Both the position numbers and the translations under genes were made by a program. 64,000 nucleotides of DNA. Source: a virus. The DNA is taken from positions 1-64,000 of IMG/VR virus record IMGVR_UViG_3300023179_000104, one strand, 5' to 3'. Below are positions 4,201 through 57,717 of the stretch, piece after piece. The number at the start of each line of letters is the position of its first letter. Within the stretch, counting starts at the first letter, position 1. A model generated the notes under the pieces. The model ran no database searches. It was not told where the DNA came from and saw only the letters and a list, made by a program, of their open reading frames with translations.

Positions 4201-7200
4201 AATGGAAAACTTCCAGCATGGTTAACAGATAATGCTCCTGTTATTGTTAAAGCAAACGTAGGTGCTACTCTTCCAACTAACGTTGGTAATTCTCCAAATA
4301 CTTATGCTTTTTATAACAAATACTTTACAAGAGGTGTTGAAGAAACAATTACTAACGTAACTTCATTTACTGGTTCTATTACTGGAACTACATTGACAAT
4401 ATCTGCTATTACTTACGGTGCTCTGCAAGTAGGTCAAGAATTATCTGGAACTGGTGTAAGTGCAGGTACATATATTACTGCATTTGGAACTGGTACTGGT
4501 CAAGCTGGTACATATTTTGTAAATAACTCACAATCAGTAGCTGGTGGTACTACATTTGTTGGTTATCAAAGATCTGAAATGACGCCTTCAGGTAAAAGTG
4601 AATTTGCTCTGGCAATTGTACAAAATGGTCAACCAATTGACTTCGGTGGCAGCCCAACTCCTGGTACTTCAACTGCAACGGCACCTGCTAAATTCTTCTG
4701 CACAAGAATTGTAGAAAATTCATATTCTAACTCATTCTTCCTTCCATTCCATGGCGGTGTTGCGGGACAAAGAACAACTTATGCAACTGGTGCTTTTGGT
4801 GGAACAACTGATACAGCATCTGTTCTTCCAGTTGCAGCAGGATATCCAAAACCAGCATTTGATTATGTAACTGACCGTTATAATATTAAGTGGCCAAGAA
4901 TTAGTTTGTTTATGTCACAAACTGGTAGTGCTTCACAAGGAAGTACAACATTTACTGGTAACGTTTACGGTACTGGAAACGTAGCATATAGTTCAATGCC
5001 AGTAACTGGTGGTGCTGCTACTAACGCAATTTCTGCTGGTAGTACGGGATCATTTGGTACAACCAAATATAATATGGTTCCAGTAACCAATGATATCTTT
5101 AAGATTACTCAAACTGGTTCTTCATTCCTGCCAACAGGTCAACCAACAATTCAGTTTACAATTAACTCTTCACAGTCAATGTCTTATGGTGCATATAATA
5201 ACGCAACTGTAGGTACAAGAGGAACTTCAACTGTTGGTGGTCCTTTTGGTGTAACAGCATATAAGTTTGGTACAACAGCATCTGCCAAAATTCCTAACTC
5301 TAATGCAAACAGAATTATTGTTCCTATTCAGAGAATGACATTCCTTGAGAATGATCTTGTTCGCTATGATACATCTGGAGGTTCTGAAATTGCTAGTTCA
5401 TTTACTGGCATTTCTGGTCTTCAAAATGGACAAGTTTATTCCATTAAAAACGTTTCATTAAAAACTCCTATTTCAACATCAATAAATACAGCAAAAACAA
5501 TATCTGCAACTGCAACTGTATTTGATCTTGATAATACTATTACTGATATTTTTACTGGATCTATTTCTGGCAATACTTTAACAGTAACTACAGTAATTTC
5601 AGGAACACTTCAAGTTGGTATGTCAATTACTGGTACTGGTATTGCTGCTGGTACAGTAGTTACCGCATTAGGTACTGGTATTGGTGGAGTTGGTACTTAT
5701 ACTATCAACGGTCAACCACAAACAGTATCTTCCACAACAATTCAAGGTGTAACTGCTATTGATATTATGGCAGGTGATATTCTTCAGATTGGTACTGATG
5801 GTTCTGAACAAGTTTATGTAAATCCAGCAGCAGTTATTACAGCAACAATTTCTGGTACTACTTTAACAGTAAGTGCTGTAAATGGAACTCTTACACCAAA
5901 TCAATTAATTACAACTTCTGGTACAACTGTAAATCCAGCACAAACTGTACTTGATAATACTGCAATTGTTAGTCAACTCAGTGGTACTACTGGCGGTGTT
6001 GGTACTTATTTAATTAATAATGCACAAACAATCTCAGTAACAACTAATATGATTGTTTCTGGTGGCAGCAATCAAATTACTGTAACTAGAGGTTATGGTG
6101 GAACAACTCCTGCAATTATTCCAGAAGGAACTCCATTGTATAAGATCTATGGTTCATTCCAGTTGTACTCGCAAGTACTTCTGCAACCAAGAGCACTTAG
6201 TTTTGGTATTACTACTGGTCAAATTGATGCCACTAATATGATCTTTAACTTTGGTGGTACTGTAGCTGCTAGCGGTACTCCAAAAGCGCACAACCTTCGT
6301 ACTGGAGATCCACTGCTTCTGTCATCTGGCGGCGGCGGCATTGTCAGTCCATTCGGTTATAGCATCGTCAACAGTGGAGCTAATGCCACTATTGTATATG
6401 CAATTGTTACTAGTGATTATGCATTCAAAATTGCTCCTACAAAAGAAGCAGCATTCTCTGACTTCTCAATGACAATCACTAACGTTGCTACATCATTTAC
6501 TACAATCGTAGATACAGTTCCTTTAAAATCTTTTGTTAATATTTCTGATGTTACACACAAACTGTTGAATGTTTCTTCTACAGGTTCTATTGACGGTCCT
6601 TATGTTGCAAACTCTGTAACTTCCAGAAAATTAAACTTAAAACCACAAACAAATACTTCTCTTACAATTAATTCTAGAGAATTAACATTTAATCCAGCAA
6701 AAACACTTAATCAAAAAACAGGTCAATTCATTTATACGGGTCATGGATTTTCAACTGGAACAAGAGTAATTTATTCTAGAAATAGTAATCCATTTGAAAT
6801 TGGTAGAGAGAAGCAAAGAAATTATCAAATTACTAACATAAGCAGAGTACAACAAGCAACTGCAACTGGTACTCCTGGTCTTGCAACACTGACATTCTCT
6901 GCTGCACATGGTTTAACAATTGGACAAATTTATCAAGCACAATACATCAATATTGATGGTACTAATGCTACAAATGAAACTTTTGATGCTGTAAGCGTTC
7001 CTGTATACGTCAGTTCCACAACTCAAGTTCAATATATCAGTCCTATTTCAAACACTGTAGTAAGTTCTACTGCAGTAACTGGTACGATGTCTCTGAGAGG
7101 AACTTTACATCCTCAAGCTGGATATAATGCACTCTATGATCTTGATCTTACTGCTGCTCCTTCAGGAAATGGAACAACTGTAACTTATACTTTTGCTAAT

Positions 7201-56386: not shown

Positions 56387-56410
56387 GGGGAGTTACACTC
56401 CCCTTTTTTT
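56387..56410 (+). terminator. Intrinsic terminator abutting the lipoprotein start codon
   Basis: GGGGAGT and ACTCCCC form a perfect 7-bp stem with a TAC loop, followed by seven T. The next base begins the ATG at 56411, as at 41999. Confidence 0.85.
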
Positions 56411-57075: not shown

Positions 57076-57113
57076 TTTGACAATCTAAGCACTCTTTGTT
57101 ATGATCGTTTTAT

Positions 57114-57186
57114 GTTTCGGTAGCTCAGTGGAAAGAGCATCTGCCTTCTAAGCAGTTGGTCGCTGGTTCGATCCCAGCCCGAAACG
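57114..57186 (+). tRNA. tRNA-Arg (TCT)
   Basis: A 73-base cloverleaf with acceptor GTTTCGG/CCGAAAC, discriminator G, D-stem GCTC/GAGC, anticodon stem TCTGC/GCAGT-like pairing, loop CTTCTAA (TCT at 57147-57149) and T-loop TTCGATC. It reads AGA/AGG, codons frequent in this AT-rich phage (for example AGA throughout the virion genes). CCA is not encoded. Confidence 0.93.
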
Positions 57187-57187
57187 C

Positions 57188-57216
57188 TTGACAATTATGA
57201 GTGAATGCTTTATAAT
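57188..57216 (+). promoter_or_regulatory. Consensus sigma-70 promoter inside an inverted repeat
   Basis: TTGACA and TATAAT with an ideal 17-base spacer, two bases after tRNA-Arg. GACAATTAT (57190-57198) and ATAATTGTC (57212-57220) are perfect inverted arms covering the -35 and -10, so the promoter is also a dyad. Confidence 0.85.
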
Positions 57217-57223
57217 TGTCATG

Positions 57224-57244
57224 AAGAAATTTGTCAAATTTCTT
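57224..57244 (+). repeat. Perfect 10-bp inverted repeat at the start of the short transcript
   Basis: AAGAAATTTG and CAAATTTCTT are separated by one T, about where the transcript from the 57188 promoter would begin, and are followed by A and five T. It could act as an attenuator-like hairpin or operator. Confidence 0.6.
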
Positions 57245-57269
57245 ATTTTTGTGCGTTTTACAATTTTTT

Positions 57270-57297
57270 GAAATCTCATATGAGATTTCTTTTTTTT
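57270..57297 (+). terminator. Intrinsic terminator directly before tRNA-Asn
   Basis: GAAATCTCAT and ATGAGATTTC form a 20-base palindrome followed by eight T; the last T is the first base of tRNA-Asn. It would end a short RNA begun near 57222. Confidence 0.75.
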
Positions 57298-57369
57298 GGG
57301 GTGTAGCTCAGCGGTAGTAGCGGGATGCTGTTAACATCTAGGTCGCAGGTTCGATCCCTGCCACCCCAG
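57297..57369 (+). tRNA. tRNA-Asn (GTT)
   Basis: A 73-base cloverleaf with acceptor TGGGGTG/CACCCCA (seven pairs), discriminator G, anticodon stem GGATG/CATCT (one G-T), loop CTGTTAA (GTT at 57330-57332) and T-arm GCAGG-TTCGATC-CCTGC. A frame that runs on into the next gene begins inside this tRNA and is not used. CCA is not encoded. Confidence 0.92.
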
Positions 57370-57420
57370 TTGGAAGTAAGAACTGCGATTGCCCATATAT
57401 ACAATAAAATACTTAATATT

Positions 57421-57717
57421 ATGACCAAGATTAGATGCAAATTTTGCAATAAAGAATTACAAACTTCTCAAGTAAATAAAGGGATTGGATGTCACTGTCC
57501 AAATGAAACTTATATCACGCTTGATCGTTCTGGTCAGGTGAAAATTTCTGCTAAAGATATGTCATTAGTTGAGATTATTGAAGGGGTATCCAAGAAACGT
57601 TTGACAAGTCAAAAAAAATCTGATACTCTTCTTACAGACGCAGATCTCCAATGGCAAGAAGAACGCAGAGAACGAAAAGTTTCTCGCAAACTTTTAGATT
57701 CAGTGGAGATACGCTGA
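57421..57717 (+). CDS. Small zinc-ribbon-like protein, cyanophage type
   Basis: A 98-residue protein starting at ATG 57421; upstream in-frame sequence lies in tRNA-Asn. CKFC (C6, C9) and CHC (C24, C26) near the start suggest a metal site. The rest is charged and helical (QWQEERRERKVSRKLLDSVE). Similar short Cys proteins are frequent next to tRNAs in cyanophages. Function unknown. Confidence 0.7.
   Translation: MTKIRCKFCNKELQTSQVNKGIGCHCPNETYITLDRSGQVKISAKDMSLVEIIEGVSKKRLTSQKKSDTLLTDADLQWQEERRERKVSRKLLDSVEIR

Follow-up and report, generated by a model that had tools for sequence, protein, structure and literature searches.

The DNA analysed here (the window) comprises 64,000 nucleotides of a viral record of 66,499 bases, which may itself be a fragment. 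Seven tRNAs were detected in the window by ARAGORN, all on the + strand. The best DNA matches of this tRNA array are Synechococcus phages, and the gene order of nrdA, nrdB, small genes and tRNA array is, by reading, as in S-PM2; the source virus looks like a T4-like cyanophage. Upstream of the array, between two short ORFs, the + strand carries a strong hairpin with T7 behind it at 56387-56403, and this hairpin is terminator-like on the - strand too. Within the array, a promoter and three dyads occupy the spacer between tRNA-Arg and tRNA-Asn (57188-57297); the features of this spacer and its flanks are:

57077-57105, + strand: sister promoter TTGACA-17-TATGAT with an imperfect dyad, between tRNA-Ile and tRNA-Arg
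57114-57187, + strand: tRNA-Arg (TCT), 5' neighbour of the unit (ARAGORN; Rfam RF00005 gives 57114-57186)
57188-57216, + strand: sigma-70-type promoter TTGACA-17-TATAAT, 12/12 consensus match, 0-1 nt past the tRNA-Arg end
57189-57221, + strand: first dyad, an inverted repeat embedding the promoter and proposed as a trailer hairpin of tRNA-Arg (from folds, a dyad scan and relatives)
57221-57271, + strand: 16-codon frame from ATG (57221) to TGA (57271), taken as a by-product of the hairpins
57222-57224, + strand: expected transcription start, predicted from the position of the -10
57224-57244, + strand: second dyad (leader hairpin I), AAGAAATTT-GTC-AAATTTCTT, then ATTTTT
57270-57297, + strand: third dyad (leader hairpin II), an intrinsic-terminator-like palindrome, GAAATCTCATATGAGATTTC, plus T8, adjoining tRNA-Asn
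57296-57370, + strand: tRNA-Asn (GTT), 3' neighbour of the unit (ARAGORN start 57296; Rfam start 57297)

The preliminary description of this spacer had reported a perfect promoter between two tRNAs, inverted-repeat arms over both hexamers, a 10-bp hairpin with a T run at the expected start, and a 20-base palindrome with eight T reaching tRNA-Asn, and each of these elements was recovered. The hexamers TTGACA (57188-57193) and TATAAT (57211-57216) are separated by 17 nt, and the exact promoter sequence is one of three in the 66,499-base record, both strands counted. The arms of the first dyad, TGACAATTAT (57189-57198) and ATAATTGTCA (57212-57221), pair over 10 bp around a 13-nt centre and span each hexamer except its first T. 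The second dyad has 10-bp arms and a 1-nt centre (9 bp and a 3-nt loop in the folded form) and begins 1-2 nt past the expected start point. The third consists of the palindrome at 57270-57289 and the T8 at 57290-57297, with the G+C-bearing stem and T run of an intrinsic terminator (8 pairs, 3 of them G-C, and a loop of 4); no T run follows the first dyad. By reading, the first acceptor G of tRNA-Asn is 57298.

RNA folding of the whole unit gave -27.3 kcal/mol (z -4.85), with -12.2 kcal/mol (z -5.27) for the first dyad alone, -4.8 kcal/mol (z -1.77) for hairpin I (57222-57250) and -9.3 kcal/mol (z -3.77) for hairpin II (57264-57297). The dyad of the sister promoter is poor, the fold of 57076-57113 reaching only -3.7 kcal/mol (z -0.91). 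None of 1000 dinucleotide shuffles of the 110-nt segment contained three dyads that do not overlap and have arms of 8 bp or more. Across the contig, 5809 overlapping windows of this length were examined and two contained three such dyads, both representing this unit, and its dyad density is unmatched elsewhere in the window. Since window-wide scans revealed no excess of promoters (67 vs 73.1 in shuffles) or terminators (8 vs 7.6), it is the combination and place of the elements that stand out. The 16-codon frame noted previously exists, with no support as a gene; as a leader peptide it was rejected, because it begins at about the expected +1, leaves no room for a ribosome-binding site and is encoded by the palindromes.

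Recurrence of promoter-embedding dyads behind tRNAs

No second copy of the unit was found in the record, only the palindrome matching itself on the opposite strand. For 57222-57297, blastn at E up to 10 detected no relative among 50,697 phage records, with two weak partial matches. In IMG/VR, the terminator palindrome pattern matched 2 loci, neither of which has tRNAs, and in Rfam only the tRNAs of the window scored above threshold, the best match to 57185-57300 being far under it. A further 40 IMG/VR stretches contain the exact arms of the first dyad around a variable centre; most of them, judged by eye, lie in a spacer with a tRNA gene on each side, and most keep the spacing of the window. 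These 40 arm-chosen loci entered the trailer-hairpin set described below and lie outside the main count and the 109-site pair count.

The main scan combined a tRNA T-arm with TTGACA-17-TANNNT in viral contigs and set no condition on the arms, which avoids circularity. A dyad was scored when it was perfect, anchored on the -35 and at least 6 bp long. The far control consisted of promoters at the same loci separated from any tRNA of the same strand by more than 300 nt. Duplicate promoters were removed (142 to 133 abutting a tRNA, 177 to 164 far), and sites less than 60 nt from a locus end were left out of the main and context counts. Many sites come from related phages, so that these counts represent non-independent events. 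Among the matches listed, 91 of the 133 distinct tRNA-abutting promoters carry a dyad and 42 lack one of 6 bp, against 3/164 far promoters with a dyad; this control rules out the dyads as a mere consequence of the promoter consensus. By context, dyads were present in 81/94 promoters with a tRNA on both sides, 13/44 with one upstream only, 13/88 with one downstream only and 6/239 far promoters, again among the matches listed. Some of the 13 downstream-only cases follow tRNA-like ends missed by ARAGORN (by eye).

A second sample comprised 80 loci picked by an RlpA-like protein (naming by eye) encoded upstream of the array. Here, 28 of the 30 distinct tRNA-abutting promoters contain a dyad, and such a promoter occurs in 37 of the 67 loci having at least two tRNAs. 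When the 3' halves were swapped among promoters of the tRNA set, 28% of the chimeras still reached 6 bp because class 1 (below) is uniform, and the argument is therefore borne by the far control and the paired changes.

Four geometries were distinguished. The right arm lies over the -10 in class 1, as in the window; the hairpin sits between the -35 and the -10 in class 2; class 3 resembles class 2 with a shift of one base; and class 4 is short, with few cases. In the set of dyad promoters with tRNAs on both sides, for which an upstream tRNA within 15 nt was required, the first base of TTGACA falls within 1 nt of the tRNA end (-1 to +1) in all 151 of the matches listed. Among these, the next tRNA follows the -10 by 7-17 nt in 110, making them almost leaderless, and the remaining 41 have leaders of 43-124 nt from the -10. 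The unit at 57188-57297 belongs with these tRNA-spacer dyad promoters, its TTGACA lying no more than 1 nt away from the 3' end of the tRNA and its dyad exceeding 6 bp on the -35. With 81 nt between the -10 and the acceptor G, its leader belongs to the long kind. The loci of the window itself (L001-L003, L049 and L050) were left out of the context, trailer-hairpin, G-U/A-C, loop-type, 5'-flank and 151-promoter counts.

Behind the corresponding tRNA-Arg(TCT), the closest syntenic relative (L046) retains a dyad of 8 bp, the promoter there having TAAGAT as its -10. Its order is tRNA-Arg(TCT) with the dyad promoter, 8 nt, tRNA-Thr, about 260 nt, tRNA-Asn, tRNA-Val, a homologue of the ORF at 57421, and tRNA-Pro.

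Paired changes in the arms and a probable role in upstream RNA

Conservation of the arms in relatives had been set beforehand as a test of the preliminary description, and the outcome goes further than that test asked: complementary pairing is kept while the bases change, and the relative just described retains the dyad. At the pair joining position 9 with the fourth base of the -10, the 109 sites among the matches listed comprise C-G 85, T-A 18, T-G 4 and C-A 2. The left arm TTGACAAT accompanies the right arm ATTGTC in 42/53 cases, compared with 1/69 for other left arms (matches listed). In class 2, double changes affect three pairs, with 23 double-changed cells vs 7.3 in shuffles (0/500). 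In class 1, 9 such cells vs 3.7 in shuffles (0/500) were found at one outer pair only, and the single covarying pair is not above shuffles (1.4); both classes were evaluated among the matches listed. Across these sequences the pairing of the arms, not their letters, is apparently what is kept.

These changes bear on whether the dyad is a DNA operator, bound by a dimeric protein that would repress the promoter. Both hexamers are covered by the arms and GACA...TGTC is invariant in classes 1 and 2, as such a site might require; the other arm bases vary, but in pairs and at several spacings. Hairpins also occur at the same place behind promoterless tRNAs: among the matches listed, one lies within a few bases of the 3' end in 259/727 spacers vs 34/727 at +100 nt (spacers under 30 nt, those less than 200 nt from a locus end and duplicates left out). 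Among the 4-nt loops of 101 distinct promoterless trailer hairpins listed, 19 are stable RNA tetraloops in the sense orientation (UNCG/GNRA) and 3 are the antisense equivalents (p 0.0009), and the loop types point to sense-strand RNA. Single mismatches give a weaker signal, with 37 G-U and 21 A-C cases (p 0.048); at the class 1 pair the corresponding counts are 4 and 2, all among the matches listed. With this evidence, an operator is highly unlikely to be the explanation. Because the first dyad adjoins the 3' end of tRNA-Arg and fits the trailer-hairpin habit, it probably acts in the upstream RNA, beyond any operator role. The 13/88 dyad promoters without an upstream ARAGORN tRNA indicate that a trailer role alone is insufficient.

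The symmetry could in principle also create a second promoter on the opposite strand, where ATGACA-17-CATAAT (10/12) and TTGACA-17-TATAAA can be read. In the commonest class 1 sequences, however, the reverse -10 is TTTGAT (by reading), so that symmetry does not preserve a reverse promoter, and all seven tRNAs lie on the + strand. We regard a two-way promoter as extremely improbable.

The leader, its putative terminator and the reading of the unit

Long leaders of class 2 contain two added hairpins, giving three in succession between two tRNAs. In the isolate S-SKS1, such a three-hairpin spacer folds at -28.8 kcal/mol (z -5.23); it shares the order of parts with the window unit, whose sequence is unrelated and A+T-rich. 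The special trait of the window is the T8 after the last hairpin, adjoining a tRNA, as a terminator of this kind is rarely seen elsewhere. Among the matches listed, 12/789 tRNA 5' flanks have a hairpin and at least 6 T in 8 nt, one of them at L189, where a dyad promoter of class 1 leads into a hairpin, TTATTTT and then tRNA-Gly. In the 80 protein-chosen loci, 4/300 flanks are T-rich, and in all four the hairpin is the promoter dyad itself.

Structured RNAs were identified in the leaders of related arrays. Family A5 (19 leaders; L138:9966-10002, L237:7801-7837) is a structured RNA between promoter and tRNA with 9 covarying pairs. Its first domain has no Rfam match, its second domain is abiF RNA (42.2 and 49.3 bits, cut-off 37), and the derived model R1 scores 99 bits in S-SRM01. 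Family A4 (L109:3064-3129; L237:7917-8000) has the form GAGGKTAAGTC...TTATGAG...CACTTAMTCC with double changes at 4 pairs in 10 sequences, and Rfam gave no match for L109:3030-3135. Family A3, before tRNA-Gly (L232:7030-7075), consists of GTGTGAAGGAAG and a hairpin, its loop often GNRA, with double changes at 5/6 pairs. In a viral contig of 248,835 bases, manA RNA and tmRNA were observed at L028:3858-4065 and 4628-4927, within an array of 26 ARAGORN genes.

The unit could be a dedicated small RNA gene of about 70-75 nt, framed by promoter, a 5' hairpin flush with the start, and terminator, its proximity to tRNA-Asn being incidental. Such framing, and the structured RNAs in related promoter-tRNA spacers, one family with abiF RNA, would suit this reading. 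Against it stand the absence of relatives of 57222-57297 among the phage records, the lack of an Rfam family above threshold and the weak fold of hairpin I, and we consider it unlikely. Alternatively, the spacer could be a deletion junction at which the promoter of a lost tRNA was joined to the terminator of a lost gene, any short RNA being a by-product. The window passes directly from tRNA-Arg to tRNA-Asn, where L046 has tRNA-Thr and about 260 nt after the Arg promoter, and loss of tRNA-Thr and its neighbour could account for the second half of the unit without any function. However, only one relative shares the neighbourhood closely, it has no terminator ahead of tRNA-Asn, and a junction accounts for the second half only, not for the perfect dyad; a deletion origin seems rather unlikely.

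The reading that we favour, and hold to be fairly probable, is a PeSL-type (promoter-early stem-loop) cassette of a tRNA array, in which the first dyad has a double use and a leaky terminator precedes tRNA-Asn. As DNA, the first dyad would contain an early promoter of the host (sigma-70-like) type, from which transcription starts anew in the direction of tRNA-Asn and the genes beyond. In read-through RNA it would form a hairpin from the 3' end of tRNA-Arg, most likely helping to set or protect this end during processing of a multi-tRNA precursor; since the first hairpin would be absent from the RNA of its own promoter, it could act only in read-through RNA. The other two hairpins would be part of the 5' leader transcribed from the embedded promoter, and hairpin II with its T8 would serve as an attenuator, a leaky terminator just ahead of tRNA-Asn. 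Most transcripts are likely to be short RNAs of about 70-75 nt, with some reading through into tRNA-Asn. An efficient terminator would mean that the promoter does not serve tRNA-Asn, and terminator efficiency decides between an attenuator of tRNA-Asn and a stand-alone small RNA. The preliminary description had offered a small RNA gene or a regulated start of tRNA-Asn with an attenuator: the second option comes near to our favoured reading, given the recurrent pre-tRNA promoters and the terminator-like T8 hairpin, and the first is less likely: related spacers carry structured RNAs, yet no relative of 57222-57297 was found among the phage records.

Tentatively, and with clearly less than even confidence, we extend this to phage tRNA arrays in general. 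Here the -35 would have to serve as the 5' side of the stem in the trailer hairpin of the upstream tRNA, so that a single stretch of 33 bases closes one precursor and opens another; in the window, the restart would feed a terminated small RNA gating tRNA-Asn. If promoter and trailer hairpin share bases, the promoter sequence is constrained by RNA folding. The arrangement, if true, would allow the formation of tRNA 3' ends in cyanophage infections to be tested simply by mutation, and would provide a marker for array punctuation and for the structured RNAs behind it. To our knowledge, the transcription and cutting of phage tRNA arrays are poorly known. A literature search of titles and abstract openings, outside which the PeSL papers lay, returned no description of promoters embedded in hairpins of such arrays.

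Comparison with array RNAs, attenuators and PeSL cassettes

The manA, wcaG and abiF RNAs of cyanophages are alike in their siting in or near tRNA arrays, and none matches the window unit. The search for abiF RNA in the record of the window gave no match, as was the case for the control genomes. The AbiF toxin is neutralised by abiF RNA (PMC12373285), and abiF RNA has been reported from S-CREM1 (PMC9964418). Because of this neutralisation, abiF RNA carried within the tRNA array of a phage could serve counter-defence. Compared with an intrinsic terminator or attenuator before a gene, the window has the same palindrome and T8, but the gene next to these is a tRNA instead of a coding gene. No antiterminator fold was identified in the unit.

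PeSL cassettes of T4-type phages consist of a stem-loop that overlaps or abuts a sigma-70-type early promoter in a short intergenic space, and their definition includes several alike copies per genome, serving recombination. They are reportedly the subject of Arbiol 2010 and Comeau 2014. The window has a predicted strong promoter (a 12/12 sequence match) and stem-loops that overlap it (57189-57221) or abut it (from 57224), and alike copies are absent from the 66,499-base record, possibly a fragment. Having no second copy there, the unit is filed as a variant working like PeSL, not as a proven member. In S-PM2, the PeSL density around the ORFan region is below that of other T4-like phages (PMC4503421).

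We surveyed 16 intergenic stretches, hand-picked from 50 kb of RB49, for promoters, either annotated or apparent, among the early genes. In 11 of them a promoter matches in at least 10/12 positions, and in 6 of these 11 it is overlapped by a stem-loop of 6 bp or more; one promoter is directly followed by a terminator-like hairpin. RB49 and the window are alike in the sigma-70-type promoter overlapped or abutted by a stem-loop within a short intergenic space. They differ in that the arms in RB49 mostly flank the -10, leave the -35 unused and lie between protein genes, whereas the stem in the window lies on the -35 and at the 3' end of a tRNA. By this analogy, the unit may be regarded as a tRNA-spacer variant of the T4-type PeSL cassettes.
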